64,000 nt of DNA from Terebella lapidaria. Taxonomy: Eukaryota; Annelida; Polychaeta; Terebellida; Terebellidae. Location: assembly GCA_949152475.1 (NCBI GenBank), contig OX424568.1, forward strand, positions 20,063,667-20,127,666, read 5' to 3'. Of this stretch, positions 1 to 33,800 are shown piece by piece. Position 1 is the first letter of the stretch; each line of letters opens with the position of its first letter. The translations under genes and the position numbers were made by a program. The notes below the pieces were generated by a model that had not been told where the DNA came from, ran no database searches, and saw nothing but the letters and a program-made list of their open reading frames with translations.

Positions 1-1911
1 GGGGTTTAGTTTTACCCTCCAGAGAGAACACCAGAGTTCGAGGTCATCCAGTGCCCTCTGGAGACGAGGAGTGGAGTAGTTAGGATTCTTATTAGATGTC
101 CACAATGCCAGGTCGTCAGCGAATTGTGAGACCTGTATGTGGTTGTTAGGGTGGATAGGTATGTCGTTGACATACAGAATGAATAGAATAGGACTGATAA
201 CAGAACCCTGAGGAGTGCCAGCGTTTAGGGGTACAGAGTCGGAGAGCTTGTTAGTCACCCGGACAGAGATAGAGCGGTTATTCAGGAAGGAGGACAGGAC
301 ACGAGTTAGGTACGTTGGTGTATTGTAGTGTAGGAGTTTGTAGCGGACTCCGTTGTGCCATACTGAGTCGAAGGCCTTTTCGACGTCTAGTAGTACGGCA
401 CTGGTGGTCCACTTTAGGGTGCTGTAGTGTTTGATTTGTGTGCCAAGTCTGTACACATGTTCGTTTGCTTCTTTATGACGCAGGTAAGCCCTTTGCCATT
501 TGTTGATGAGTTTGTTCTGTTCTAAGTGTTGGATGAGACGTGTTGCGAGTAGTTTTTCTAGGAGTTTGCCTATACACCGGAGAAGACTGATTGGCCTGTA
601 GTTTAGTGGTATTTTGTTATCCTTGTCGGGTTTCGGGATCATTACTCCGGTGGCGTGTTTCCATGCATCCGGGAAGTACCCGGTTTCTAATGTCAAGTTG
701 AACAGGTAGGTGATTGTCTCAACTGCAGATGGAGGTAGGTGTTTTAGAGTGTTGTATGTGATGGAATCATCGCCGGGGGCCGACTTTGATTTTGTTTTTG
801 AGAGTTGGTCCATGAATTGTTGTGTTGTTATGTAGTTAATGGGAAGTTGGTTAGTGGTAGAGAAGTCAGGGAGGAAGACCAGTGGGTTAGAGTTTATGGT
901 GTTGTCTACAGTGTTTTGGAACCTGTTGTCGTATAGTGGACCTGTATGTGTTTGGTGGACTGTGGCTAGTGTGTCTGCAAATGTTTGGGCGGTGTCGGTT
1001 GGGTTGTGAGTGTGTTGTCTGATTTAAGTATGTGTGGCGTTGCGGTTGTTTTGGTGTATTTGTTGCCTGAGAGTTGGTTGAATAGTTTCCAGAATTTTGG
1101 AGTGTTGCGGTGTTTGTTGAGTTCCGACGTCGCATTGTCCCATTGTTCTTTTTTGTGCGTTTGTATGTCGTGTTTGATTTCTTTGGCTAGTTTGTTTATG
1201 GTGGTGTTGAGTTGTGTGTTCCAGGACTGTTGTAGTTGTCGGCGTAGTTTGCGTTTGTGTTTGATTTTTTGTATGATGGCTGTGGGAAGTGTAGATTTGT
1301 GTAGTTTGTAGGTGAGAGTGGGTGTTGCAGTGTCTAGTGCTTGGTTGATGACGTCACTTGTCCACTGAGTCAAGGAGTCGATGTTTTGTTTGTTTATGAC
1401 TGATAGTGGTGTTTTGTTTGCTGATTGGATGTTTGCATGTAGAGTTGTCTGGAACTTTTTCCAGTCTGTTTTGTTGTAGTTTTTGCGTTTGATTGTTTTG
1501 TTGGTGTTGGGTACATTTGTGTTGAGTGTGAGCGTGAGAGGTAGGTGATTTGTGCCGATGTCTGGGCCAACTGTTGGTGGTGTGGTGTGTTTTTTGAGTT
1601 CTGGGGTTACAATCGCCAGGTCTAGGACCTGACTGTAGTTCCCCCGGTGATATGTGGGTGTTGGAGTGTTTGTGACTGTGAGACCCAGATCTTCAACAAT
1701 GTCGAAGAGTGTGTCTCCTTGTGGTGATGTTGTTGTGGAGCCGTAGAATTGGTGTTTGCAGTTTAGGTCGCCAATGAAGACAGCGTGTTTGTGGGTTGCC
1801 AATGTGTGCTCAAATATGTAGCTGTTTGGGGTGGTACTGGGTGGGTTGTAGTAGGCAACTACGGCTGTGTCTAGGTTGTTTATTTTTACTGTGATGCCGA
1901 GTGCCTGTGTG
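1..1911 (-). mobile_element. Non-LTR retrotransposon ORF2, 3' part: endonuclease C-terminal half and reverse transcriptase (partial, frameshifted)
   Basis: Read on the minus strand, 1911 to about 1000 encodes the second half of an APE-type endonuclease, including the hallmark FIGDLNCKH at about 1770-1745 and a LDLAIVTP motif at about 1620. From about 1000 to the window edge the next frame encodes a reverse transcriptase: SAPGDDSI, NYRPISLL, LLDVEKAFDSVW, GTPQGSVISPILF and the catalytic FADD at about 100-110. The two halves are in different frames, so one small indel lies near 1000. The endonuclease frame stops at 966. RT runs off the window at base 1. Family: Jockey/I-like non-LTR element, which nicks DNA and copies its RNA in place. 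The missing 5' part is at 15757-17412; the break at 1911 coincides with the TIR of the element starting at 1912. Confidence 0.9.
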
Positions 1912-1947
1912 CACAGTAAAAATTATTATCTTATTTTCAGACTATTA

Positions 1948-2835
1948 GAAAATAAAACACAATTGAAGATTTTTATTCTTGTCTGTTACTATGCTGAACC
2001 CGTTATCTAAAAATGGGAGTGGTTTGCTTGTAATTTTCTCAAAGCAAGATAGCACAGATATTCTGTCTAAATTCTGGATTGATAATCTTGATTTATCGAG
2101 AAAAATGATAATATTCAAGAAAGTGTGATATCTTGAATCTATATACCCACAGAACAGTATATACCACGTACATTCAGATGTATATGCATGCATGCATGCA
2201 TTATTGGATATTGTACGTGTACTTGAAGTACTTTCCCTACATGCCATCTATTTTTCAGGCCAAGTGCTTTCTTTCATATCAACCACTACGCCTGCTTGCA
2301 ATATAACTACACCGGAACCCTATATAGTGCACAAATTCTATTACACGTCATTCAGTTATAAATACATGTATTGTACATGTAATTCAGTTGGTTTCTGTAT
2401 AACACCATTGCATGGTTTGTTGTAATTTTATTCATTTCTGTTCTGCATTTGTGATTTCAGTGTGAATATATCCTGGACACTAATTGATACACTTAATCGT
2501 ATTACTCTAGTGTCATATTTACTTTGTTTCTTCTTTGTATGTCTTCGTTTGTCCTACCCTGTTTGTATGCGAAATATCCAAGGGAATATTATATATTGTC
2601 GTGTACCAAGTATTCTCTTCAGTAATTGAAAGTACCTTTTCAAAATAACCATATTTCCATATGTAGATTCAAGTTGGGATGTATACTGAGCAGTATATTG
2701 TATACTAGTAACCAGACTGAAAGACAATAAATTTTGGTTTTGAATATTTATTAGCACAATGTATGTATACATGTGACAAAATTCGGAGAATACCTCAACA
2801 AATACAGGGATCTTGCATGTGTACAACATCATGCT
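1948..2835. other. Left subterminal region of the CACAG element, no gene seen
   Basis: AT-rich. Contains TATCTTGAAT, ATCTTGATTTAT and TTCAAGAAAG words resembling the right subterminal region, and a short ATGCATGC run at 2184-2200. I see no coding exon. Confidence 0.5.
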
Positions 2836-2837
2836 TA

Positions 2838-3920
2838 AAGGGTATATATCACGAAAATTGGATATTGGTTTTTGTTATGTATGTGAAAGCACTATTTGAA
2901 CTGAACAAAATGGTCTTCACAGCATATTGATATCATGATTCATTCCAAAGTTATGGCACTTTAAACATGTATATATTTGCAGAATCCGGCAACAGAATCT
3001 GACAGCTAATTAATATGCAAATGAGATGTGTGACGTCATTGACAGACTACTTTTTAATTAGGCATTTTAAAATGGAATATTGATACCGTTTGTATCCATA
3101 TTTTTCCACCAAAATCCATTTTGTATGATTTTTAGTTGGAATAGTCAGTGTTTACATGAAATTTGTGGTTGTTATGGCAACCAATGGCCTGGCTGGGCCC
3201 TTAGCAACCATGGTTGCTAGGGCCAATATCTAATTGAAAACGAGATATACATGAATGAAACCATTTCAGACAATAGAGTCATAGCAATATATTGAGGAAA
3301 ATATCAGCAACATGTCTGAACACAAGCCTTAGCAACCGGTACAGGCATTGGAAACCAGCGATAATAGGACACATTAACTTAACATGGCTCTAAACGTCAG
3401 TGATTTCTCAGGCCTGTATCGGTTGCTAAGGAGTGTTTTTGTACATTTTGTTGATCAATTACATAAAATATTGTCACTACCCGGTAATCTAAATTGGTTT
3501 GATACTTTTATGTCTTGTTTTAAATTGAATACCAGCCATAGCAACCTGGTTGCTAAGGGCCAAATCAGCCCATTGGTTGCCATGGCAACTGAAATTGATA
3601 TGCATTCACTGACTATTCCTACTGTACAATATACCTGATAAGTTTTAGTGACCTAACATAAGCTTAAATGCCTAAATGTGACTTATTTAAACACCTCATT
3701 AAAAAGCAATCTGTCAATGACGTCACACATATTATTTGCATACTAATTAGCTGACAGATTTTTCAAGACTATTGGGAGAAATTTGCCAGATTTTCAATAT
3801 TAAAATAGCTATAACTTTTTAACAAATCGAGATATCAACATTCTGTAAAGACTGTTCTATTCAGCTCAACGAGTGGCTTCAAATAAAATTATATCATATT
3901 TTCGTGATATATACCCTTTA
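2838..3920. mobile_element. Palindromic MITE with TTAA duplication (Kolobok/piggyBac-type target)
   Basis: Both ends carry TTAAAGGGTATATATCACGA in inverted orientation (left at about 2836, right at about 3921). TTAA is present at each border, fitting a TTAA target duplication with AGGGTATATATCACG termini. The inverted arms are long, about 500 bp, and diverged: a block with ATATGCAAAT, GTGTGACGTCATTGACAGA and a GCTAATTA word occurs in both arms (about 3000-3050 and 3690-3760). The centre has repeated GGTTGCTAAGG/CTTAGCAACC motifs that are again self-complementary. No ORF of note. TTAA duplication fits Kolobok or piggyBac families; I cannot separate them without the transposase. Confidence 0.75.
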
Positions 3921-4474
3921 AGTCTGACTGTGTTTAGCATCCATTGTATATCATTATAGTAGTTGTCATCGCCCATTATGACATGCACTGATTAGTGAAC
4001 GAACAGTGGCACCACAACTACATGCGAGTGACAAAATTAAGGCAGTATTTCAACGAATACAATGAGCTTAATTACACGTAGAACATAATGCTTAGGACTA
4101 TGTACCAGCTATTCCGGTATATCATTTGTATATATACTGGTGATAATGGTAGTTTCATCATCCATTATGACACTCATTTGTGGCAAACACAACCTACATG
4201 TTAATCTCCGCCACGTCTGTCATATCACGCCAGACTGGTACGTAATGTTTGTCTGCCAGAGTTATGACAAAATAGGGCTTGTGATCAAGAAGGTCATATG
4301 ACTTGACGAGGATTATAACCTTCAGGATTTCCTGGTTCTTCTATTTCATATGATTGGAAACGTTGGTCAAACTTAAGTGTATAATACATTTGGACATTTG
4401 TAGAATACATTTGGATATAAATTCTTCCGGAGCACAAAATATTCCATAAGTCGGAAAAGATTTGCCTTTGCAAA

Positions 4475-4638
4475 ATGTCTGAAACAAAGCTTACCGCAAG
4501 TCAAGTGACCAGGAATATTGTGTATGGTTTGTTCAAAATTAAAGAAACTGGTGGCTCATCGGAAGTATGGAACAAATTTGGAATGATAGCCAATAATGAT
4601 CAGATGCCTGTTCATGTACAGGCTCTTTTGCAAAGAGG
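4475..4638 (+). CDS. Possible first coding exon, unrecognised protein
   Basis: An ATG at 4475 opens a 54-codon frame (MSETKLTASQVTRNIVYGLF...) ending at an AGAG|GTATAG donor at about 4638. A GGATATAAATT word lies 60 bp upstream and could be a TATA box. The segment SSEVWNKFGMIAN resembles the start of a BED-type zinc finger but the expected cysteines are not present before the donor. No matching downstream exon was found with confidence. It may belong to the SAM gene, to another gene of the large element, or be non-coding. Low certainty. Confidence 0.3.
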
Positions 4639-4669
4639 TATAGAGCTCTATGTTCAATTGTTCATATGC

Positions 4670-5340
4670 TACGGTGCGGTGCGGGTGCGGGCCTCAGTAT
4701 GTGCGATGCACTCAATAAACCCACTCCGTGTGATCCTATTTCACACTTTTTTTTCATCATTTATATATATCCAAGCCTAAAAGTCTGTTTGTGTCACGAG
4801 GAGTCATACAGTTACAGTATCCAAGTTACAAGAGGAATTCAAGCATTGAATTCAATTTATACATAACATGTAGTATAGTATATTATCTCACAGTTCTCTC
4901 ACAATAATAAACGATGATGACTGTATAGGTTTACAGGGTGAACGATCCACAGTTATCCATGCCCTGTACATATATACCATGTGATATGAAATTAATACAC
5001 ACATAGAACATATGTATATGGGTCTTGACATCACTGGTTCACAACAAATCGTCCACGATTTTATTCCACAACTCCATCATATTGTAAAAATTGTATGCGG
5101 GCCGCGGTGCAGTCCTACGCGGTGCGGTCCCACGCGGTCCTTTGACAAAAATTGAACCCGCACCGCAGCTGATATCAGATTGCCCACCCACACCGCACCG
5201 CAGTCTCCAAACTTCAGGCCCGCCCCGCACCGCACCACAATGTTGGAGTCAATGTCCTCCCCGCACCGCACCGCGGGCTGCGGGACCCGCGGCCCGCGCG
5301 GGCAAACCCGCCCCGCGCAGAGCCTTATAAAGGCGCATGT
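4670..5340. repeat. GC-rich GCGGTGC-type repeat island
   Basis: GTGCGGTGCGGGTGCGGG at 4674 and a cluster of GCGGTGCGG, CCGCACCGC and CCCGCGGCC words at 5100-5320 stand out from AT-rich surroundings. The left cluster (GGTGCGG) and right cluster (CCGCACC) are in inverted orientation, so these may be the two ends of a roughly 650-bp insertion, but I could not define its borders. Overlapping open frames here are composition artefacts. Confidence 0.45.
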
Positions 5341-5839
5341 GTGAGGCAGAATTATAAATCCGCGTGTGCCCAAAAAGGCATTGTTTCATTTATAGGCGCA
5401 TGTATATGCGCCTGTATGCGCGGGAATACGCTAGGTCTAAACTAGATTCTAGATTTAACGTAAAATAAGATAAATTTACTCAGAACTAGATATTTTAACA
5501 CGTGACATCAACGCATGCTCTGATCCAGCAACCGCACGCGCTCATCACAAATCAAGTGTATCAGCAAGATGGCAGACGAAAACGTGAATCAGTGGACATC
5601 GGCGGATGTTTTCAAGTATCTTGTTCAAAACTTTGGCCATGACATAGCGGAAACATTCAATCGTAAGTATACATCAATATTTTTGTTAGGTAGATTCCTT
5701 GACGATTTTTAAAAATCGGTCAAACGCGCGTCATTATGTCTGATGATCCAAATCAAACGATAGCTGCAACACTCACACTGCGTTACAAAGTTACCTTCCA
5801 ATGAAAATCCCAAAGGAATGTGGTCGTCGGTGGTCGTCG

Positions 5840-8150
5840 TTAAGTTCCGATAACCTATTGGCATGGCGTTGCGTCCGTCGTCCGTCGTCGTCGTCCGTCG
5901 TCGTCCACATTTTTATCTTTTTTGTTTACGGGCGAATTTTTCTGAAATTTCGCACAAAAATAATTAAAAATAATTCAAGAAGGTACGGTGGCTGATATAT
6001 GCCATAGTTTTATTTTTCAGATTTCATTTATTTATTTTTTCCAGATGGACACTCTAAAGAAAAGAAAATAATGTTAAATACGCGTACTTAATGTTAAATA
6101 TGCGTACTTAATATTAAATACACATACTTAATATTAAATACATGTATATAATATTAAATACGTGTATATAATATTAAATACATGTACTTAATATTAAATA
6201 CGTGTACTTAATATTAAATACGCGTACTTAATGTTAAATACGCGTACTTAATGTTAATTACGCATACTTAATATTAAATTAGCAAAAATTGGATGTGGTT
6301 ATGTTGCTGTGTATGTCTCGTGAAACAAGGTATGTATCAAACGACATTGCGCTTCAAAAAAATTAAAATATCTAACTGTCTGGTATTTAATATTATATAC
6401 GCGTATTTAATATTATGTATGTGTATTTAATATTAAGTACGCGTATTTATCATTAAGTAAACGTATTTAACATTAGGTACGCGTATTTAATATTAAATAC
6501 ACGTATTTAATATTATATACACGTATTTAATATTATGTACGCGTATTTAATATTAAGTACGTGTATGCAATATTAAGTACGCATATTTAACATTAAGTAC
6601 GCATATTTAACAATAAATACACGTATTTAATATTATATACACGCATTTAATATTATGTACGCGTATTTAATATTAATTACGTGTATTTATCATTAAATAC
6701 GTATATTTAATATTAAGTACGTGTATTTAAACATTAAGTACGTGTATTTAATATTAAGTACGTGTATTACATGCGTCTGGAAAATATCGTAAATAAATGA
6801 AAACTAAAGAATAAAACTATGGCATATATCAGCCACTGTAAGAAGGAGGTATTTTTTAGTTTTTTTATTTTCGCATTTTTTTCAACATGGCGGCCGTTTT
6901 AGACGAAAAATGCCTGATTTTGGACTTTGGCGGCCATTTTCCCAAAATCTGTTCAGTAACTTATTTTGTTTTTGACACATAACACTTCTCATATGTACTC
7001 CTATGATGTCTATAAATTTCGTTGCGCTTGGATCGCTCGAAGTGGGCCATTTTGGCCCAAACTCGGCCCAAATGGGACTATCCCATGTTAAATTCTCCTA
7101 TGTTTTATAATGGGACACATTATGCCTAATATCACACTTGATATTGAGAAATGATATATGCAGATTATTGTCATGACCTTGAATTTGACCTTTGACCTCA
7201 TTTTCAAGGTCACAGGACAAAATGGCTAATATCTCACTTATTATCGATTTCAAAGCTTAAGAATCAATTGTGGACATATAGGAAATGATATAAGCTGAAT
7301 ATTCTCGTGACCTTGAATTTGACCTCTGACCTCATTTCCAAGGACAAGCTGGCTCATATCTTGCTCCTCTATTGACTGTATGGCTTGGGAATCAATTGTG
7401 GACATGATATAGAAAACGATATACACTGAATATTTTGATGACTTTGAATTCGACCTTTGCCCCTTCATTTTCAAGGCCACAGCACAAAATTGCTAATATC
7501 TCTCTGATTATTGAATTTACAGCTTAGCAATCAACTGTGGACATGATGTAAGCTTAATGTTATATATGCTGAATATTCTCTTGACCTTGAATTCAACCAG
7601 TGACCTGGCTAACATCTAAAATATCAAACATTGTCCGGTAACCTATCTTTGGCCCTTGGCCTAATTTTTAGTTTTCTGATTTTCGAATTTTTTTCAAAAT
7701 GGCGGCCATTTTTTGACGAAAAACGACCAATTTTTGACTTTGGCGGCCCAAACTCGGCCCAAATGGGACTTTCCCATGTTAAATTCTCCTATGATTTAAA
7801 ATGGGAGACAATTTTTCCAAATATCTCATTTAATAATGAAATTAGAGATTAGGAATCTATTGTGAACATATATGAATGATATATGCTGAATATTATAGTG
7901 ACCTTGAATTTGATCTTTGACCTCATTTTCATAGGACAAAATTGCTAATATCATGAATATCTTCCCTGTTATTGAATTTATAGCTTAGAAATCAATTGTG
8001 GACATATGGGGAATAATACACATGTATGATGTATTTGTATGCTGTATGTCCTTGTGACCTTGGTTTTGACCAGTTACTTTTTTTCAAGGTCAAAATGGCT
8101 AATATCTAAAATATAAAACCTATATTGTCCGGAAACCCATCTTGGCTTTT
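5840..8150. repeat. GTCCGTCGTC repeat family, copy 1 (interrupted)
   Basis: Starts with a TCCGATAACCTATTGGCATG word followed by GTCGTC triplets, then the shared body with AAATGGCGGCC, TTTGGACTTTGGCGGCC and GGGCCATTTTGGC words, and ends near TTGTCCGG(T/A)AACC at 7630 and 8130. The 3' half has tandem subunits of about 130 bp, each with ATGATATATGCTGAATATT and TGACCTTGAATTTGACC. Two partial ends at 7630 and 8130 suggest two joined copies. The MITE at 5987-6838 is inserted in it. Related copies lie at 11692-14793, 28490-29390 and 31348-32941. No coding capacity seen; superfamily unknown. Confidence 0.75.
5987..6838. mobile_element. MITE with 31-bp inverted ends and two opposed 20-bp satellite arrays
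   Basis: Ends match in inverted orientation: TAC(G/A)GTGGCTGATATATGCC with ATAGTTTTATT following. AGAAGG (possibly AAGAAGG) borders both sides, consistent with a 6-7 bp target duplication. Inside, about 11 copies of a 20-bp unit (ACTTAATATTAAATACGCGT and variants) occupy 6064-6275 and about 19 copies of its reverse complement occupy 6385-6770, around a spacer of about 110 bp. The whole element can fold into one long hairpin. ACGCGT, ACATGT and ACGTGT variants alternate among units. Confidence 0.8.
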
Positions 8151-8164
8151 GTTCTATTTTTTGT

Positions 8165-8500
8165 TGTTTGAACCACAATAAAGGAGAATTAAACATATAT
8201 TTACATTTACTTGTAGTGATACTTAAAAAAATGGACCAAGTTTGACCTCAATCCACACCTTTTGCTGTGGACCAATACGGCAATACTACTTTTAAACAAT
8301 AAAAGCTCTGATTTGACGGTTGTTCAAAGTGGAGAAGATTCTGTTTACCATGTGCACCATGTCTACACATACATTTCATTCATGTGAAAACATTTGTCAA
8401 TATTTCAGTTGGGAAGACCAATGCCATATACTTGGCTTACCAACAACAATAAACTGACCGAAAAACTTAGGGAGAGGAAACCCAACATCAAAATTATTCA
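8165..8500. other. Intergenic/intronic stretch before the SAM-gene exon
   Basis: Mostly AT-rich. A good acceptor (TATTTCAG at 8401-8408) opens a 30-codon frame LGRPMPYTWLTNNN..., but its phase does not fit the donor at 5662. It could be a decayed exon or part of a separate transcript. Confidence 0.3.
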
Positions 8501-9004
8501 ACAGTTGCTAGTCTCGAGTTTCCTGCCAGGAAAAACTACATTGACACTCTCGAACTTGATGGCGAAGCAAAAGTGGCTAATATCATGGAGGCCTACCCTT
8601 GTTTCTCACAGGGGGTACACGTACGTTACCTTGGTTACAATTGATTTCACATTTTCATCATAATATGATATTTCCCATCATTTAGTGAGCTAACAGGGAC
8701 ATAATTAATAATGGTTTAAATCACCACCGTGGATAACCAGCATGTATGGGGGCCGATTACAGTAGTAGAGTCCATGGTGAACAATTTTCTCTTTGCTTCG
8801 GAGTGGTGTTTAGTATACCTTTACGTATCTTTCACCAATGATCATCGTGTTTCCAGGTAGCAGATGAACTTCGCAGACATATCTCGAACACCAGCATTTC
8901 CTCAGAATTTGCATCGGAGTGTAAAGACCGATTTACCACAGTTGTCAACAACCTGTTTCTCTATGGCATGCCAGGAGTCATCAAACCAAAGTTATACTCA
9001 CAAG

Positions 9005-10271
9005 GTTTGCTCAGCAATGGTCACTGATTGTGTTCAATTTTATTTGTTTTAAATTTTGTGTATCCCCGGAACAAAGTTCGGCGGATACTATGAATTTGTC
9101 ATCGTCACCTCCGAGTCCGCTGTGGACACTTTCTTGCGAGCGCTCTACAGGTTGCAAATCTGAACCAATCTCGATAATTTTTCATGGAAACATATCTGAT
9201 GGTAAGGTCTTGACACCTATTGATTTACTTTGCCATGGTGAACAAATTGGTCGATTGTCAAGGCATTTTGGATTTACTAGTGAGGCCTCCCCAATAATTT
9301 TGTCCCCAGTCGAGAGTAATACATGTAAGTCCTTCAGGTCAGGAGTAGCAGATAGTTTTCTTCTAGCTATAACAGCAGTATTCTTGAAAAAGTTAGCATT
9401 GAGTTTGCTAATTAACTCCATTACTATCCAGAGTAAAAATAATTAAGCGCAGGAACTTCTATTAATGGAGTCAACAATACATGATTGTATTGTACTAATA
9501 TTTATCAGTTAAAACTAGACGCTCTCCGGTCGCTGACGACCGCTGGGGTGTATCCCCCGTAGCCCTATCATCCCTGTCGCCTCCGAAATATAGACTCAAG
9601 CATCGAAAATTGATGTTACCTTGTTTGATAATACGACCATTATTACAATACATGTACCATCAAATTTCTACTGACCAGAAATTCACCTTAGCTTACATGT
9701 ACAATCTAGTGGGCAATTTCATTCCCAGGTAATTCCCCATTTTTCAGATCCAGATTGACAATTGGTTGTGATGGCAATTTGTTGCCTCTAACACATTTTG
9801 TTCTTTTTATCTGTGATTATCATTTTGTGTCACTGATAAACTGGTCATTATCCTTGATCTATTGGGTATTATGGATGAACTTTGACCTTGACCTGAATTT
9901 TTTGCCGAGTCGGCATTTTTCGTTTTCGTTGATATCTCGGAAATGGTGCATTGTAGAGCAAACCGGACGTTATTTTCGGACTCGTTGCACTGGCCAAAGA
10001 TGCCTAGAGGGTGTCAGGGATGACCTTTGACCTTAACCTTAAATTTTTTCGCCGAGTCGTCATTTTTCATTTTCGTCTATATCTAGGAAGTGGTGCTTCG
10101 GTCTCAACATCGAAATGCCTCCAAGGCATCTTTAGGCCTTGACGTCTAGTTGTACATGCAAATTGTAACCTAGATTTCACTGGTTTGTAATTTTTATTGT
10201 GTACAGTGCATATACAATTTGTAACTGCAATTTTACCATGTTAAAAGGTGAAAAAAATATTTTGATTTCAG
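9005..10271. other. Intron of the SAM-like gene with diverged repeat debris
   Basis: Holds TGACCTTGACCTG (about 9886) and TGACCTTTGACCT (10021) half-site words, ATATCT(C/A)GGAA words repeated around 9930 and 10078, and CATTTTTCGTTTTCGTTGAT-type text occurring twice about 150 bp apart (9913 and 10060). These are degraded repeat copies. No exon recognised. Confidence 0.45.
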
Positions 10272-10821
10272 ATGAAAAGGAGGAAACTGTTTGCTCCCTC
10301 CTTGTGCAAATACTGAGGCAGCGGCCTGGCAAAGCAGCAACATTCGTGGTTGCTCGTGATGTATGTTGCTTACAGACAGACACTGACAGTCTTACTCGAC
10401 AAAAAAACAATTTTATTGCATTTTGCTTACCAGATCTATCGGCTTGAATTTGAGAAACACTATTTCTTACTTTGACATAAATGTGAAAGTGTCAACTTTT
10501 GTTTGTTTTTTTGTCGGGTGTAAATAACGAGTTACATGTGATGCAATACCATTGAGTACACTGTGTTTTGTTATTCAGCTTTATGTATGCTCTTCCCATT
10601 CATTCACAGGGTGCCACAGATGTCCACAGTCTGGCGAAGTCGAACCATCCCAGATTGATCCTGACGGAAGAAACAATCATGATCTGTGGATTTGGACGCA
10701 CTTTCGGCATTGTTCGCCGAACAGGGGGCTACTTTAAAGCAGTACTGATAATGATTGGTGTTTACTACACTTTCATGTTGACCTATCCATCCAACCTCGG
10801 TGCCGCACTCCTGTTTTTGCA

Positions 10822-11521
10822 TTGCTCGATTCCCGCTTACAGCTTGGTACTGGTTCATGCAAAAAAAACGGCTACCGAAGGGCCTGAAAACCCGGGATTT
10901 TCGTGTTGGATCAATTTGTCATGAAATACACTTTATACAGTGTGTGTGCCAACAGGTGTGTCAGAGCTATGAAATAACTTCATATCCATTCAATGGAATC
11001 ATTTGGATGGTCTACAGGTGTATATATTAAATTATATTTGGTATATTTTGAGTTTGCATAGTCAAATCCGGGAGATATCTGGCAACTTTATAAGTCAGTG
11101 ATATAACCATCCTCACTAAATTGATTTAAATTATTTCAGGTAACATTATTGACCTGAGATGACCAAATGTACTGCCAGAGGCATATTTACCTTCAAGGAT
11201 AAAATTTTCCACACAAAAAAACAAGAATTATAAAAAAAATCGTGCTTGAGAGCAGTTCGCGGACCCAGGTAAAGGTTGCCAGAAATCTCTCACATCTCGA
11301 TATTAAACTGGAAAATATATCACCTGTATCCAACTTAGACTACTCAAAATGTTCCCATAGAATGGCCCTGAGTGTCTCTCATGGCTCTGACACATTTATT
11401 GGCACATACAAACTGATTTTCATGAGATATTGGCCCAACACGAAAATCCCGGGTTTTCAGGCCGTTCGGTGACCGGTTTTTTGCATGGACTAGTACCAAG
11501 CTGTAGGCGGGCACCAAGCAA
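10822..11521. mobile_element. 700-bp inverted-repeat transposon with 9-bp target duplication inside a coding exon
   Basis: GTTTTTGCA occurs directly at both borders (10813-10821 and 11522-11530). Ends are inverted repeats: TTGCTCGATTCCCGCTTACA on the left against TTGCTTGGTGCCCGCCTACA read inward from the right, both followed by GCTTGGTACT. The arms stay similar for about 190 bp (10822-11020 and 11310-11521), sharing GGCCTGAAAACCCGGGATTT. The internal 290 bp is AT-rich and non-coding. A 9-bp duplication with long inverted arms is typical of Mutator-like (MULE) non-autonomous elements. Confidence 0.85.
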
Positions 11522-11691
11522 GTTTTTGCAGGAGCAGGTCTTCTGCGATGACCCGCACAGTAGCGATCGCACACCCGTCTACAAGTCTATGGTTAAGAAG
11601 TATGAGAAATTTATAAGCCGGTGAAACTTGAGTCGCCGGCCTAGATCAGGGCATCAGGGGATACACCCATGCAGCCACAAACGAATCTAGT

Positions 11692-14600
11692 TTTCAGGTT
11701 ACCGCACCTATGTTCCGACAACCTATTGCCGTCGCGTTGCGTCCGTCGTCCGTCCGTCCGTCTGTCCGGGCAAACGGAACGGAGTTTTGGGGATTTCTTA
11801 GGGGGAATAAAGCTGAAAACGCCCCACAACCACAGTTTAAGCCAAAAGTGCGGTCTTATGGGGATTTTTTCAGGACTTATGGGGAAAGTTAAGATAGGAA
11901 ATTTAACATTGGGTCCGCCCGTAACGCCCATCCGTTCACCCGTCCGTTCACATTTTTAGCTTACCGGCCCATATGGGCCAGTAGGCTATTGTCGTGGTTT
12001 TTCGTCCGTCGTCCGTCCGGCAAATAACTTTTTTTGTATTGATGAATTTCTCTGAAAATTTACTTGAACATTCCTTGGGCTAATATCCTGAGCTGTTTTT
12101 ATCGTTTTTTTTATTCAATCGTTTTTGCTCATTTGGCGGCCATTTTTGCCGAAAAATGGCCAATTTTGGACTTTGGTGGCCATTTTCTCAAAAACTGTCT
12201 GATTAATTTTGAGATTTTTGTTTTGAAGGATTCCCCTAAATGTACCTCTATGATGTATATAAGATTCGTTGTCATTGAATCGCCGGTCTGCGTGTGGCAG
12301 CCATTTTGATTTTTTGACGGGTCGTCCAAACAATTTTCTTTTGGCCCGAAGCATGTCACTATCCATTCTGGGTAATTTCCAGCATAAAAAAAATTCACCC
12401 TGTGAAAAATATTTTGGACTTAGAAAATTTTCACCGACTTTTCCCTTCATAATATCTGATGTTTTATATTTATATTTGGAAAATCAATACTCTGTGCAAT
12501 TCTCATGATCAACCGGTAAGCTACAGCACCCTTGGTGCTATGTTTATCTTTAAAGTGTGCGATCCGATCTTTCTAAAAATTTGGGAAAAGATGCATTAAA
12601 ATAATTCAAGGAGGAGGTAATTTTTAGTTTTTTGATTTTTCAATTTTTCTCAAAATGGCGGCCATTTTTTGTTGAAAAACGCTCAATTTTTAACTTTGGC
12701 AGCTATTTTCTCAAAAACTGTCTGATCAGTTTTCAGATTTCTGTTTAAAAAGATTCTTCGTATGTACCTTTGAATCGCCGGTCTTCGTGTGGAGGCCATT
12801 TTGAATTTTTGACGGATTGGCAAAAAAAATTTTGTTTTCCCCAAATCGCATTATTATCCATTTTGGGCCATTTCTAGGCACACAAAAAATTGCACCCTTT
12901 GAAAAAAAATTTGGACTTGGAAAATTTTCGGCACTTTTTTCCTTCATAATGGGTGCTGCCAGAACTGTACTCATAGAAAGCCCGCAGATAGAGCTTAGGT
13001 ATTTACACTTTCAAATAGGAAGTCATATATGGCGACTTGTGTGGTGATCTTGAAATTGACCTTTGATGACCTTGAAAGGTCAAATCAGTAATTTTTGGGT
13101 CAAAAATGTCCAAATTTGCTTCTACAGACGAGGTTATTGCAGATAGAGCTTATGTTTGCATTATGAGCATATAGGAAGTCGTATATGGAACAACTAATGA
13201 TGACGTTGAACTTGACCTCGGATGACCTTGAGTGCGAAATGTCTGACATGGAATGTGTAATTTGGCCGCTGAGGTTCAAAGGCTCGCACCTAGAGGTTAG
13301 GATTATATTATAAGCTAATAAAAATAAAAATAAGAAGTGGCACATCTAATTGGTGACCTTAGATTTTGCCTTAGACGACCGTGAAGGCTAAATCTCAAAG
13401 TCTAACCTGAAATGTGTAAATTGGCCTCTACAGACAAAATACTTGTTACTAGGACTTATATGTTTGTATTATGAACATATAGAAAGTTCTATGCAGTACA
13501 CATAGCTCTATGCAGTACACATAGTCCACAAAAATGACCTTGGTTGTCACCTGCAATGCTCTAAACCAAAATTGTCTGGTAACCTGTCATAGCCCTTGGG
13601 CTAATTTTTAGCTTACCGCCCCATATGGGCCGATAAGCTATTGTCGTGGTTTTTCGTCTGTCGTCCGTCGTCTGTCCGTCTGTCTGTCTCCCTGTCTGTC
13701 TGTCTGTCTGTCTGGCCGTCCGTCCGTCCGTCCGTCGTCCGTCCGGCAAATAACTTTTTTTACCTTGATGAATTCTTCTGAAAATTTACTAAAACATTCC
13801 TTGGGCAAATACCCTGAGCTGCTTTTTTTTGTTTGTTTTTGTTTTTTATTGAATCGTTTTTGCCGATTTGGCGGCCATTTTTGCCGAAAAATGGTAAATT
13901 TCGGACTTTGATGGCCATTTTCTCAAAAACTGTCTGATCAGTTTTCAGATATTTGTTTCAAAAGATTCCCCTTATGCACCTCTATGATGTGTATGAGATT
14001 TGTTACTCTTGAATCGCCAGTCTGCGTGTGGCAGCCATTCGGTCCAAATCGCGTTACTATTCATTTTGGGTGATTTCATTCAAAGAAATTTTGGACTTTT
14101 TGGAATTTTGAAAATTTTCACTGATTTTTCTCTTCATAATGTGAGCTGCCGGAAATGTACTCATAGAACGCTTTAGGATAGAGCTTATATATTGGCATTT
14201 TCAAATGGGAATTCATATATGACGACCTGGTGGTGATCTTGAATTTGACCTTTGATAAGGTCAAAATAGCCTTTTTATGGTAAAAAATGCCCAAATGTGC
14301 CTCTACAGATGAAATGCTTGTAGGTAGAGCTATGTTTGCATTATGGACATATATAAGACCTACATGGCACAAAATAAAACCTTGGGCTTGACCTCGGATG
14401 ACCTTGAGTGCTAAATGTTTAGTGTGGAATGTGTAAATTGGCCTCAGCTGCTCAAACTATTGCACCTAGAGAGATATTATGTGCCAATACTTAGGCTCTA
14501 TCTTGAAGAGTTCCAGGAGTTAACTCCACTATAAGCTCCCATTGTGAAGGAAAATTGGGTTATAGGATTGTTGCCTTTGAAATGACGGTCTGTAAACATA

Positions 14601-14793
14601 TGTCATTAACGAAAAACAAACTTTCAAGATGTAACTTGAGTTCGTGTCATAGTCCATACAGAAGATATGTGTTCGGCAACATTAACGAACATATTTTGAC
14701 AATGGTATAACAATTTATACTTCGGAAAATCGATACTCTGTGCAATTCTCATGATCTGCCGGTAAGCTACAGCACCCTTGGTGCTATGTTTTT
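11692..14793. repeat. Mosaic of two related repeat families (AGGTTACCG... and AGCTTACCGGCCCATATGGG...)
   Basis: 11692-11957 is a fragment of the 5840-8150 family. 11958-12552 and 13606-14793 are copies of a second family that begins TTTTTAGCTTACCG with CCCATATGGGCC, continues TATTGTCGTGGTTTTTCGTC, and ends CCGGTAAGCTACAGCACCCT at about 12511 and 14758. 12553-13605 is again first-family-like, so the copies may be nested. CATATGG is palindromic and both families share GGCGGCCATTTT blocks and TGACCTTGAATTTGACC blocks. 13661-13745 is a CTGT/CCGT microsatellite. No protein recognised; long open frames are low-complexity artefacts. Confidence 0.7.
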
Positions 14794-15159
14794 CTTATGG
14801 TTGCAAAACAATATGGCATTAGTGCATGTACGTGTACGAATCCAACATACTGTATATTGGTCCTATAGAAGTATGGACCTTAAACAGGCCAAGGGTGCCA
14901 CGTCTTCCTTTAAGAACGTTAATTTGTATTTTGGCACATGGCATGTATAATGACAGTATAGGAGGTATTATATTCACGATTTTTGCATTGGTATAATATA
15001 TTATTGTATACTTTTTGAGATTTTTTTCACATTTGCACTTATTAGGATCAGCAGGGCCGGTATATTTTAGTTGTGGTTTTCTTGAAGTGTGACCTTACTT
15101 ACATTGCTACAGCAAGTAAAATAATGCTTTCTCAAACCAAGTGTGTACAATTCTCAATT

Positions 15160-15239
15160 TCAGAAGCCACCTGTTATTCCAAAACAAGAAAATAAGATTT
15201 ACTTTCTCACCAGAGGAGAATGGCTAGATTATTCACGGA
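15160..15239 (+). CDS. Possible orphan coding exon
   Basis: A strong acceptor (CTCAATTTCAG, ending at 15161) opens KPPVIPKQENKIYFLTRGEW and continues for seven codons to a GTGAGA donor near 15240. The amino-acid composition looks coding, and this is the only such segment in the right part of the large element. No partner exon or family was recognised. Splice signals alone are weak evidence. Confidence 0.3.
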
Positions 15240-15240
15240 A

Positions 15241-15756
15241 AGTGAGATATTTTTTCCTACTTGTAGATATTTTCACTTACAGTGTCTTCTTGAATGCAGA
15301 TTGTGCTTTTCTTGAATGTAGAATATGTATTTTCTTGTTTCAAGTTCATTATTGTTCAGATAAGATAATTTTTTGACTTGTTTCAGGAAATAAAATCTTG
15401 ACCACTAAGAAGATTTTCTTGTTTTTGTTGGAAAAAATCTTGTGAGAAACTGTGATCTAGAAAAAAATGGCTTGAAATTAGATTAAAAGTAGATCGAGTT
15501 ATCTTGGTTGAATGCGTATATGCTCGTTTCTGGAAATAAAATCTTGAATTCTTGTAAATAATTCTATTCACAAGAAAATAAAATCCCTAAAAATTCCCAA
15601 AACTAGATATTCTTAGGAATAATCGTTCGTATTTAGTTCTTGCATTAAGAAAATTAAGGCTTAAAAATTAGATTTACCACACTTGCTATTCTCCCAAGAT
15701 TTATTTTCTTTCTTGAAGTTTTTTTTTCTGAATCTCAGATATTTTTTTTTACTGTG
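15241..15756. repeat. Right subterminal region of the CACAG element
   Basis: Contains repeated GGAAATAAAATCTTGA words (15387, 15530) and AAGAAAATAAAAT/TTTTCTTG words in both orientations up to the terminal inverted repeat. Subterminal motif repeats are a known feature of CACTA-type elements, where transposase binds them. Confidence 0.5.
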
Positions 15757-16038
15757 TGGTAGGATTTGTGTTGAAGTGTATTGTGGTGTAAGGGATGTGA
15801 GACTTGATTAGGATGGCTACACCACCCTGGTGTCGTGAGATGTCAAGTCGAGAGGCTGTGATGTAGTTTGGAATGTAGATTTTGTCTGCTGGTGATGTTT
15901 TTGTTTCATTGAGGGTGATGATGTCAGGACTGGTGTCCTGTGTGAGTACGTGTAGTTCGTGTTGACGTAGGTGGAAGCTGTCTACACTGGCGTGTGTGAT
16001 GGTGAGTTTGCGAGTGTGCTGAGCGTGTCTGGTGAATG
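15757..16038 (-). mobile_element. Non-LTR retrotransposon ORF2, N-terminal part of endonuclease
   Basis: On the minus strand this encodes HELHVLTQDTSPDIITLNET, then the start of an exonuclease-endonuclease-phosphatase fold with the conserved NET and a RHQGGVAILIK strand. It stops abruptly after NPTTQ at the TIR of the CACAG element and continues at 1911 with ALGITVKINN. Same element as the reverse transcriptase at 1-965. Confidence 0.88.
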
Positions 16039-17412
16039 TTACTGATGTTGAGGGGAGGTATTTGTGAATGGGATAGTGTTGTATAGGTGCTGTATGTGTG
16101 ATGTTTTAGTGGGTGTCTTGAAGAGTGTAGTGATGATGGGTGCTATGATTGTTGCGACATTCTTAGGGTGTAGTGTTTGGGTCCCTAGCGCCTCATTTAT
16201 TGATTGTGTGATTGCCGCAGTCAGTGTGGTGGCGATACGAAGTGCGAGTGTGGGCTCTGTGGGTGGAGCTATGGCTTGTGCGTATGTGGTGCGTTTCAGG
16301 TCCACCTTTTGCATCTCTTGCTTGTAGGAGGGATATCCTCGGTAGGTAGAGGGGTGTTGTCCCTGGCAATTGGTGCAGGTGGGGGTCCTATCGGTGTTTG
16401 TGCAGTCTTTTGTTTTGTGTTCCTCACTACACTTTCGACATGCCGTGTTATTTTTGCAGTTGTGTGTTGTATGTCCGAATTGCTGACATTTGTAGCACTG
16501 TTGGACGTGTCTGGGGGTGTAGTTTGTGCACCTGTACCTACGGTAGCCTAGTGTGATGCCCCCCTCTAAGTACTTTTTCTTTGTTTCTAGGTCAGGGCAT
16601 TGTAGTTTGACCTTGCGTGTGTGTTTGTTTGTTTCGCTGGAGGTGAATCGTGTGCAGGTGTGTCCTGTTTCTTCTTTGATTTGGTCTGTTGTGATGTCTG
16701 TGTGTACGTTTTCGATGACTACGTAGGTGTTTGTGTTGTTGTTTTGTGTCGAGTTGCGTGTGGGGCGTACTTATGTGTTAGGTATGAAGGTTTTGTCAAG
16801 TAGTGCAGACCTTGTCTCAAGATCGTTCGGGAAGATTAGGACAATGTCATTTTTTGTTCGAACGATCTTGTGTATGTTGAGGGACTTGATGTGTTGTTTG
16901 AGTGTGATGGTGTTGGTTTTTTGTTTTTCAGTTAGACCCTCGATAACTAGAGGGTCGATGTGGTGTCTGGGGTGTTTGTGTGGATCTTGTGGTTTTGGTG
17001 GGTTGTTTTGCGTGGTGGTTTTGTGGTGTTTTGGGTTGTTTTGGTGTGTGGGGGTGGAGAGTTTGCGTTTCTTGGAGTGTTTTGATGTGGCTGTGGACCA
17101 TGTTTCTGTTTGTGTGGGTTTGTTTGGAGGTGAGGGTGTGGGTGACAGTGTTGGCGTGTCAATGTGGACAAATGAGTGATTTGTCATTGTCAGGTTCTGG
17201 TCCAGTCTGTGTTTTTTTGTCGGAGTCCTAAGGCTGATGTTCATGTCTGAGCCGTCCATGCTGTTGTTGGGTGTAGATGTCGTGGAGAGAGGGGTCGTCG
17301 TCGTCAGGAGAGTGTCTATTAGGGTCTCCAGCCTGTCCCATAGTGTGTTGTCTGCGTTCATGAGAAGGTTCAAAACCTTCTCCCTCTTACGCTGGACAGC
17401 CACCTGGGCCAT
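16039..17412 (-). pseudogene. Non-LTR retrotransposon ORF1 (gag-like, CCHC zinc knuckles), one in-frame stop
   Basis: Start MAQVAVQRKREKVLNLL at 17412; in-frame stop at 16039; 457 residues if the TAA at 16771-16773 (codon 214) is ignored. The first half is Thr/Pro/Asn-rich and basic. The second half has YVVIENVHTDITTDQI (pre-zinc-knuckle domain) and three zinc-knuckle-like motifs: CYKCQQFGHTTHNC, CRKCSEEHKTKDC and CTNCQGQHPSTY. This is the usual ORF1 of Jockey/I-group elements, an RNA-binding nucleocapsid-like protein. The frame is the same before and after the TAA, so the only visible lesion is one nonsense codon. ORF2 begins directly downstream. Confidence 0.85.
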
Positions 17413-30840: not shown

Positions 30841-33800
30841 ATGTTGGGTCGGATGGTCGGTCGGGCCTTGGAGGAGAAGGTCGGAGTCACAAAAGTTATT
30901 GATACGTTCAAAGAAGCCTACGATTATATAGTTGGTAAGAATTGGTTCACATATGTATAACTCCTATCATCATTTTCTGCTTTCTGTCGTATACTGGTAT
31001 ACAATGGTATAGGAATATACCTGTGAATTACAAGAAAAAAGTTCTGCGGGCAATGCACATTATTACCTTTCAAGAGGAATACATTTATCATGTGCTTTTG
31101 CCAGCATAATCGTGGAGAGAATACCAGTAATGCAACTGCATAAATCATGATAATGAAACTAATTGCTTAAAACACCTTTAGATTTTGTGTGACGCAGAAG
31201 CAAAATAGAATCAGTTTGCTCCATACGAACGATTTATCACCCAACAAAAATATCGAAACACATTTGCAACACAAGTACAAGTGCATGCATGGTTTCTTTA
31301 GGAATCTCACAATCAGATCCTTGTTTCCATGCCAAGATATGGAACCACGTTTTTAGGTTACCGGACCTATGGTCCGTAACCTATTGGCATGGCGATGCGT
31401 CCAGCGTCGTCGTCGTCGTCGTCGTCCGTCGTCGTCGTCGTCGTCGTCCGTCAACAATTTTATCTTTAAAGTTTACGATCAAATTTTTCTGAAATTTTGC
31501 ACAAAAATGCCTAAAAATATTTCGAGAGGGAGGTATTTTTTAGTTTTTTGATTTTCGCATTTTTTTTCAAAATGGCGGCCGTTTTTGACGAAAAATGCCT
31601 GATTTTGGACTTTGGCGGCCATTTTCTCAAAATCTGTTCAGTAACTTTTTTTTTTATTGATGCATAACACTCCTCGTATGTACCCCTGTGACATGTATAA
31701 ATTTCGTTGCGCTTGAATCGCTCGAAGTGGGCCATTTTGGGCCCAAACTCGGCCCAAATGGGACTTTCCCATGTTAAATTCTCCTATGCTTTATAATGGG
31801 ACACATTAAAGCCTAATATCTCACTTGATATTGAGATTAGAGACTAGGAATCAATTGTGGACATATAGGAAATGATATATGCTGAATATTGTCGTGACCT
31901 TGAATTTGACCTCTGACCTTGGTTTCAAGGTCAGAGCGGCCGTTTTCGTCGAAAAATGGCCAATTTTGGACTTCGACGGTCGTTTTCTCAAAATCTGTTC
32001 AGTAACTTTTTTTTCTTATTGATGAAAAACACTCCTCATATGTACCCCTGGGACATGTATAAATTTCGTTGCGCTTGAATCGCTTGAAGTGGGCCATTTT
32101 GGGCCCAATGTGACTTTCCCATGTTAAATTTTCCTATGCTTTATAATGGCACACATTAAGCCTAATATCTCACTTAATATTGAAATTAGAGACTAGGAAT
32201 GAATTGTGGACATATAGGAAATGATATATGCTGAATATTCTCGTGACCTTGAATTTGACTTTTGACCTCATTTTCAAGGTCACAGGACAAAATGGCTAAT
32301 ATCTCGCTTATTATCGACTTTACAGCTTAGGAATCAGTTGTGAACATATAGGAAATGATATATGCTGAATATTCTCATGACCTTGAATTTGACCTTTGAC
32401 CTTATTTTCAAGGTCACAGGACAAAATGGCCAATATCTTTCTTATTAGCGCCTTTACAGCTTAGAAATCAATTGTGAACATATAGGAAATGATATATGCT
32501 GAATATTCTAGTGACCTTGAATTTGACTTTTGACCTCATTTTCAAGGTCAACAGGACAAAATGGCTAATATCTCGCTTATTATCGACTTTACAGCTTAGG
32601 AATCAATTGTGAACATATAGGAAATGATATATTCTGAATATTTTAATGATATTGAATTTGACCTTTGACCTAAATTTCAAGGTCAGTCATTTTATTTTCA
32701 AAGTCAGATTACAAAATGGCTTATATCTCGCTTATTATCAAATTTACAGCTTAGGGGTCCATAGTGAACATATAGGAAATGATGTATGCTGAATAGTTTG
32801 GTGATCTAGAATTTAACCTTTGATCCCATTTTCAAGGTTAGAGATATGGCGATTTCAGTGGTCACCTTGAATTTGACCTTCAACTTTCTCGGCTTAACTC
32901 TGTATATTTCTCCGGTAACCTTTCTAGCCCATTGGGCTAATTTTTTCCCCGCTACATGTACATGTGCAGTGGGCGCCGGTGCGGCTGGAAACGTTCTAGC
33001 TAACAGACTGACGGAAGACGGGCGGACGACGGTCTTGCTCATCGAGGCGGGCGGAGATGACGCCGTCAACGCTAACGTCCACATCCCCGCCTCGGCCACC
33101 GAGCTACAACAGACGGAGTTTGACTACGCGTACAAGTCCGTGCCCCAGGAGAAAGCCTCACGTGGACTTGTCGGCAAGGTGGATAGATTTTCACTGCAAT
33201 TATCACAAAGAATATGCCTATATTAATGTAAATTGATTATTTCCATGAACATAATTTGAAAAGATGAAAAAATTTGAATGTATTCATTTGAAGTGCAATG
33301 CCTGGAACAATTACTGAAAACATTTAGGGGCCCAATCAAATTCACGTCTTCAGACTATTCCCTTGAATTATATAGCTCGCTCAATTTTGAACTTATACCA
33401 TACCATACAAGTATCATATTGATTGAAACCGGCATCTGCGTTCTCAGTATTCATTTTGATTCAAGAGTAATCCATTGTCATCACGTTGTACACCAGCTTA
33501 AATTTATCTGACGTAATATTCTCGTTGTGAATTCAATGCAGGTGTTTCCATATTCCACTTGAATTCATGTCACACGTCAATCGAGTTACACTTAGTTTGA
33601 ATCATGGTGACGACTCGGGAGGTTCAGATTAAATAGGGCAAAGTTGAAAATTCCACGAATTGGTAAACATTGTAAATATCAGCTGAACCAACATATTGGG
33701 CAAATTGACCTATGGATCTCTAATGATGTAATTCTGAGATTGTTATGAATCCAAAGACGTCCAGGTATTCCTTCATCACTCAGTTGTGATATCTATCAGA

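Follow-up and report, generated by a model that had tools for sequence, protein, structure and literature searches.

Capture of gene sequence by transposons with inverted repeats is well documented in plants; to our knowledge, it has rarely been reported in animals. Here we analyzed a 64,000-nucleotide stretch of the Terebella lapidaria genome (C15:20063667-20127666, hereafter the window), in which one 13.8-kb DNA element splits a retrotransposon and carries sequence of a SAM-domain gene. The gene is called SAMD3-like after the original prediction, which was made from the letters of the window alone; the label does not derive from any search in the present analysis.

By architecture, plant Pack-CACTA elements appear to be the nearest analogue. 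Like the Terebella element, Pack-CACTA and other Pack-TYPE elements are non-autonomous, have CAC-type ends with gene fragments inside, and are thought to be moved in trans (PMC8903248, PMC13317346). Different from it, they have been described in plants, and the target-site duplication (TSD) of CACTA elements in rice and maize is 5 nt (PMC8903248, PMC13317346); neither a parent gene nor a partner was found here. SmTRC1 is an animal transposon with terminal inverted repeats (TIRs); it is CACTA-related and has 2-bp direct repeats, which are present in 7 of 14 copies (PMC1636069). Unlike our element, SmTRC1 has a Transposase_21 open reading frame and 54-bp ends starting with CCC, and the accessible portion of its report does not mention any host gene (PMC1636069). 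Turmoil-1 of C. elegans is also an animal transposon with host coding fragments (transduplication), but these sit within its inverted terminal repeats and the genes differ (PMC2572040); the same paper, of 2008, states that no such capture had been known from animals until the case it reports. In the open-licence PMC literature, no relevant publication joining SAMD3 or the SAM domain with transposons, CACTA or EnSpm was found, which is weak evidence of absence.

The best explanation of our observations, to which we give a probability of about 0.75, is that the element belongs to a family of large, non-autonomous CACTA-like transposons that has amplified recently, is moved in trans and carries debris of captured genes. 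The family shows precise ends, 2-bp TSDs and at least 22 loci; it has no recognisable transposase.

Ends, target-site duplications and copy number

The assembly that contains the window (761.6 Mb, 438 contigs) was searched with both outer ends of the element; the counts are lower bounds, taken from the best-scoring candidates. The left query (window 1912-2400) gave at least 21 matches, 20 of which begin at query base 1, the remaining one coming from a copy that is split in two, of which it is the second part. The right query (15270-15756) gave at least 22 matches, and all except one (21/22) finish at base 487. We also built one TIR pattern from both ends, which is 30 bases in length with 24 bases specified, and scanned the genome with up to 3 mismatches allowed. 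The scan gave 43 hits, compared to 0 for the reversed control; 39 hits have no mismatch and 1 has one mismatch, and these 40 are family ends. They form 18 correctly facing left/right pairs and leave 4 single ends, of which C4 has two and C5 and C7 have one each. The remaining 3 hits, with 3 mismatches each, pair with nothing and look like chance. One extra copy without intact ends is located on C13; counting the two single ends on C4 as one copy, the family total is at least 22 loci. When the left end of a copy is compared with its right end, 24 of 32 bases agree; among 313,600 offset comparisons, 2 reach this level, one of them being the true one. All 11 copies that were read whole have CACAG...CTGTG termini.

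Flanks were read for 15 of the 18 pairs (all except those at C14 22.3M, C12 23.9M and C12 27.95M). An exact 2-bp TSD is present in 14 of the 15: TG in six, TA in four, CG in two, and CA and AA in one each. The chance of one 2-bp flank match is ∼0.069 per pair, as estimated from the dinucleotide content of the window. Since the third flanking base differs in 8 of 11 pairs checked, the duplication is 2 bp in length; the duplication of 2–3 bp that had been proposed was right in being short and too loose in its length. At C4:24247684-24269735, element positions 456-457 are duplicated at a nested copy; the arrangement looks like one family copy put into the left end of another, with an inversion afterwards.

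In the window, the element lies inside the endonuclease of a host retrotransposon, with one TG on each side. Excision of 1912-15758, which removes the element together with one TG, gives an open endonuclease frame of 430 aa, whereas excision of 1912-15756 alone leaves the frame broken. The original prediction had claimed exact restoration of the frame after removal of 1912-15756, which is wrong by two bases, as one TG must go too. The corrected result, with one TSD copy removed, backs insertion more strongly than the earlier version did.

Some SAMD3-like genes elsewhere in the genome have spread by tandem duplication and by one 112.6-kb duplication, so that segmental duplication or another process without transposition might be invoked for the family as well. 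The flanks of the copies differ and carry exact 2-bp TSDs in 14 of 15 pairs, and the window copy is inserted inside a retrotransposon frame; we consider the chance of such an origin close to nil, and for the 14 pairs with TSDs segmental duplication is refuted. The element at 1912-15756 is a real transposon. Its predicted ends coincide with those of the genome copies, and the proposed check, whether other copies share these end points, was passed in both the end queries and the TIR scan; the description of a transposon with CAC...GTG ends and a short TSD, located within a retrotransposon and containing SAM/SAMD3-like sequence, is borne out.

Eleven of the at least 22 loci, the window copy and ten others, were read whole. 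Nine of the ten others are 10.3–11.3 kb in length, and the tenth is 12.8 kb; in the 18 pairs, the distance between the ends is 10.3–22.3 kb. Compared to copy C9a, nine of ten copies are 97.8–98.6% identical over 6.2–10.4 kb aligned; copy C11 is more diverged, with 95.4% identity over 5.2 kb. The median pairwise difference among the 11 copies is 1.9%, and the distance to the per-column majority is 0.7–1.5%, with 4.1% for C11. Because the median difference is this small, the family looks to have amplified in a recent burst, judged by divergence with no clock applied. Four stretches that are missing from the ten other copies bring the window copy to 13,845 bp. Three of these stretches have duplications (4, 7 and 9 bp) and two have clear inverted ends, which suggests additional small DNA transposon families.

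The SAMD3-like gene and other probable cargo

The coordinates of all features are collected in Table 1. Exon B, which encodes the first half of the SAM domain, is present in all 18 paired copies, C11 included, and was found at no fewer than 20 places in the genome, those listed all being within the family. Exon B alone matched no SAM model in Pfam. A chimeric query, in which exon B was joined to the second half from a paralogue, matched SAM_PNT at 3e-5 (24.4 bits, cut-off 24); the paralogue stretch alone gave 0.071, and a PDB sequence search with the SAM half of the paralogue returned two weak unrelated matches. The exon at 8442-8614 is found in 17 of the 18 paired copies, being absent from C11, and it has a one-base frameshift in all 15 distinct loci read (of 20 loci with the exon). 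The last exon is also present in 17/18 paired copies, with one further break in some of them (C9a, C3). Several of the exons retain open frames. For the second half of the SAM domain and two middle exons of the paralogue, no counterpart could be detected in C9a or in the window copy (best E values of 2.8, 2.0 and 0.63).

The order of exon, exon and last exon, with non-coding gaps in between, is the same in the element and in the host paralogue L064; we infer from it that the introns travelled along. With neither an intact SAM domain nor a continuous reading frame, and with the shared frameshift and the missing exons, we reject a functional SAM gene. The gene had been described as an ordinary spliced one; from its sequence it is instead a broken, intron-bearing SAMD3-like copy, and nothing seen points to a role of a SAM product in transposition. 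As the frameshift is common to all loci read, the gene would have been broken before most of the amplification, and the copy that amplified appears to have no longer needed it.

The same exons could be viewed in another way, with the SAMD3-like gene as an original component that gave autonomous ancestors an accessory or transposition protein, and not as captured cargo. Exon B is kept even in the diverged C11, open frames persist in several exons, and no close host parent is present among the matches listed, which leaves room for a gene native to the transposon lineage. Its frameshift in 15/15 loci, the undetectable middle exons and the extra break of the last exon in C9a and C3 speak against such a role, as do the related SAMD3-like genes that stand in the genome without family ends; moreover, no autonomous SAM-bearing copy was found. 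We therefore regard a native SAM gene as doubtful. Its fuller form, a CAC-ended lineage with a native SAMD3-like gene of which the copies here are dead derivatives, is unlikely in our view; the autonomous, SAM-encoding elements may then have been lost, have never been assembled here or have arrived horizontally. If true, part of the animal SAMD3-like family would be transposon genes and not host genes.

Captured cargo is the reading that we prefer. Family ends were not found at two host SAMD3-like loci, L064 and L065. The nearest host paralogues, on C1 and C15, show a tandem spacing of 5.2 kb and the 112.6-kb duplication, and have no family ends nearby. The proposal that transposition explains the multi-copy nature of SAMD3-like genes therefore holds for the broken copies only, and not for these duplicated paralogues. 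At C15:25714586-25832595, SAMD3-like exons repeat at a constant offset of 112.6 kb, which is a segmental duplication. Another SAMD3-like last exon has identical scores on three chromosomes (C1:59808100, C2:55692644 and C5:511487) and may represent a second dispersed SAMD3-like family.

The element also contains part of a hAT-type gene. The fragment at 4422-4584 covers most of the 'orphan exon' at 4475, which had been grouped with the SAM gene. The peptide of this 'exon' has matches in 14 family loci and at 3 places outside the family; at the best of the latter (C12:17.03M), the DNA match is 163 bp in length, 91% identical, and stops inside the BED region. The gene at this place has one BED-finger exon (zf-BED 0.0022, just below its cut-off), which is followed by a 261-aa frame with a Hermes DNA-binding domain (2.9e-9). 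Because of this match and its end point, the piece is a truncated 5′ fragment of a hAT gene and not a SAM exon. One may ask whether the element itself is a hAT transposon, with 4422-4584 as the remnant of its own transposase. The match to a hAT gene start and the occurrence of the peptide in 14 family loci would fit; however, the match is just 163 bp, halting within the BED region, and the hAT catalytic region was not recognised in the element. The ends are also unlike what we take to be the hAT consensus. The TSD is 2 bp in the element, and hAT identity is disfavoured by the 14 exact TSDs; it is very improbable. TSDs of hAT families are 5–8 bp (PMC12730594).

The short open stretch near 15160 has at least 20 genome matches, those listed all being inside the family. 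Between the SAM exons, the element contains a sequence with a 134-bp tandem array, which recurs at L064, at the CACTA-type locus L067/L069 and at 32.2–32.7 kb of the window. The array and a common flank are found at unrelated places (window 32162-32685, L064 and L069), including downstream of a transposase gene; from this distribution, the sequence is best described as a satellite-bearing dispersed repeat.

Table 1. Features of the element and its insertion site (window positions)
Feature	Position	Strand	Remarks
Whole transposon copy	1912..15756	+	13,845 bp; ends coincide with genome-wide copies
Left TIR	1912..1941	+	Starts CACAGTAAAA
Right TIR	15727..15756	-	Finishes TTTTACTGTG
TSD TG, left	1910..1911		
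TSD TG, right	15757..15758		
Host retrotransposon endonuclease, downstream half	966..1909	-	Pfam PF14529 (Exo_endo_phos_2) 4.4e-17
Host retrotransposon endonuclease, upstream half	15759..16105	-	Pfam PF03372 (Exo_endo_phos) 4.7e-6
SAMD3-like exon (exon B), first SAM-domain half	5569..5661	+	GTAAGT donor next in copy C9a
SAMD3-like exon with one-base frameshift	8442..8614	+	
SAMD3-like exon (VADELRRH...)	8857..8988	+	tblastn to paralogue L064, 1.9e-5
SAMD3-like last exon	10655..11615	+	Cut in the window by nested insertion 10822-11521
hAT-type transposase gene 5′ fragment, 163 bp	4422..4584	+	Coordinates carried over from copy C9a
Dispersed repeat with 134-bp tandem array, between SAM exons	5831..8018	+	Approximate bounds, with nested insert 5984-6839 in between
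Short open stretch between AG and GTGAG ('exon' at 15160)	15164..15241	+	
Nested 1,079-bp insertion	2839..3917	.	Inverted ends AGGGTATATATCACGAAAA; TTAA duplication; absent from ten other copies
Nested 856-bp insertion	5984..6839	.	Inverted ends; AAGAAGG duplication; absent from ten other copies
Nested 700-bp insertion	10822..11521	.	GTTTTTGCA duplication; splits last SAM exon; absent from ten other copies
173-bp segment	11769..11941	.	Absent from ten other copies

Possible transposase source and relation to CACTA elements

The longest open frame is 173 aa in the window copy and 161 aa among copies C5, C9a and C17. Pfam searches with selected frames of the element (not all six) gave nothing over the cut-off, and neither a DDE transposase of the Transposase_21 type nor any other transposase was recognised, in agreement with the original prediction. 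The element could still encode its own transposase in small exons invisible to profiles. It would fit that all 18 paired copies are long, with no short derivatives among them, and that the scan gave no partner sharing their ends; yet no frame exceeds 173 aa in the four copies checked, the coding pieces that can be recognised are debris of hAT and SAMD3-like genes, and long stretches are dispersed repeats. Overall, this possibility is improbable.

A supply of transposase in trans, as we propose, would need a source elsewhere in the genome. Among the 5 candidates scored, the genome search with PF02992 gave only C59 at E ≤ 0.001 (C59:18000, Transposase_21, 1.7e-12). The CACTA-type transposase of C59 in turn has 47 genome matches, 29 of which are located in open frames of 669–725 aa. 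Nine of the 47 loci have equal scores and one 673-aa frame each, which suggests a very recently active autonomous CACTA-type family. One of the 673-aa frames, at C15:22.0 Mb, has a Transposase_21 match of 4.3e-4, which does not reach the curated cut-off. Judged from these frames, a source of transposase in trans is plausible. The C15:22.0 Mb locus and the element have only the satellite-bearing dispersed repeat in common. On C6, one CACTA-type transposase match (C6:28802406) and a SAMD3-like last exon (C6:28825160) are separated by 22.8 kb, possibly by coincidence.

Lineages related to the CMC group mostly have CA..TG ends and TSDs of 2–5 bp (PMC12730594). The family has 5′-CAC...GTG-3′ termini in the 11 whole copies and at the 40 ends, and its 2-bp TSD in 14 of 15 pairs falls within this range and also fits the 2-bp repeats of SmTRC1 (PMC1636069). 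Like Pack-TYPE elements, it contains gene-derived sequence between TIRs and no recognised transposase. The assignment to EnSpm/CACTA made in the original prediction is supported by the termini and the TSD and by nothing beyond them. As no transposase was recognised in the element and the search gave no partner sharing its ends, CACTA membership is not proven; by its sequence, the element is therefore better called CACTA-like.

Proposed history and significance

We propose that a transposase of CACTA/EnSpm type (CMC group), supplied in trans, would bind the ends of the element, cut it out and paste it mostly into pyrimidine-purine dinucleotides. The sequence between the ends includes the truncated start of a hAT gene, the broken SAMD3-like gene and the satellite-bearing repeat. 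The SAM gene probably entered as genomic DNA with its introns kept, as in Pack-CACTA capture, and would already have been broken before most of the amplification. The window copy would later have taken its nested insertions, growing to 13.8 kb.

Several observations weigh against this history. One concerns the source of the gene. Among the matches listed, the best match outside the family has 54% amino acid identity for the frameshifted exon and 43–47% for the last exon, so the identifiable parental gene that Pack-TYPE elements have in the genome was not recovered. A close parent must therefore be absent from the assembly, too diverged, missed among the candidates scored, or foreign. No short deletion derivatives were found among the 18 paired ends, which is unexpected for a non-autonomous family. 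The assembly gave no partner element sharing the 30-bp ends, with none outside the family at 0–2 mismatches; an autonomous partner, if there is one, may have more diverged ends. In the 9.2 kb read of the CACTA-type locus at C15:22.0 Mb, there is no inverted pair of matching ends, and CACAGTA is present twice in one orientation. Subterminal repeats at both ends are a criterion for EnSpm/CACTA elements; short repeats in sets of three were seen at the right end, and in sets of two only at the left. Finally, the C4 pair, in which one copy looks to be nested in another, is the lone exception without a matching TSD among the 15 pairs read, and its outer flanks differ.

Taken together, the finding is of a known kind, its odd points being that no short derivatives, partner or parent gene were found. 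Of the earlier interpretation, the transposon and its SAM/SAMD3-like sequence stand, whereas the frame arithmetic, the spliced gene and the exon at 4475 do not. The family is a clear, recent and multi-copy example of gene capture in an animal, with exact ends and TSDs, and some predicted SAMD3-like gene copies in such genomes may be transposon-borne wreckage.

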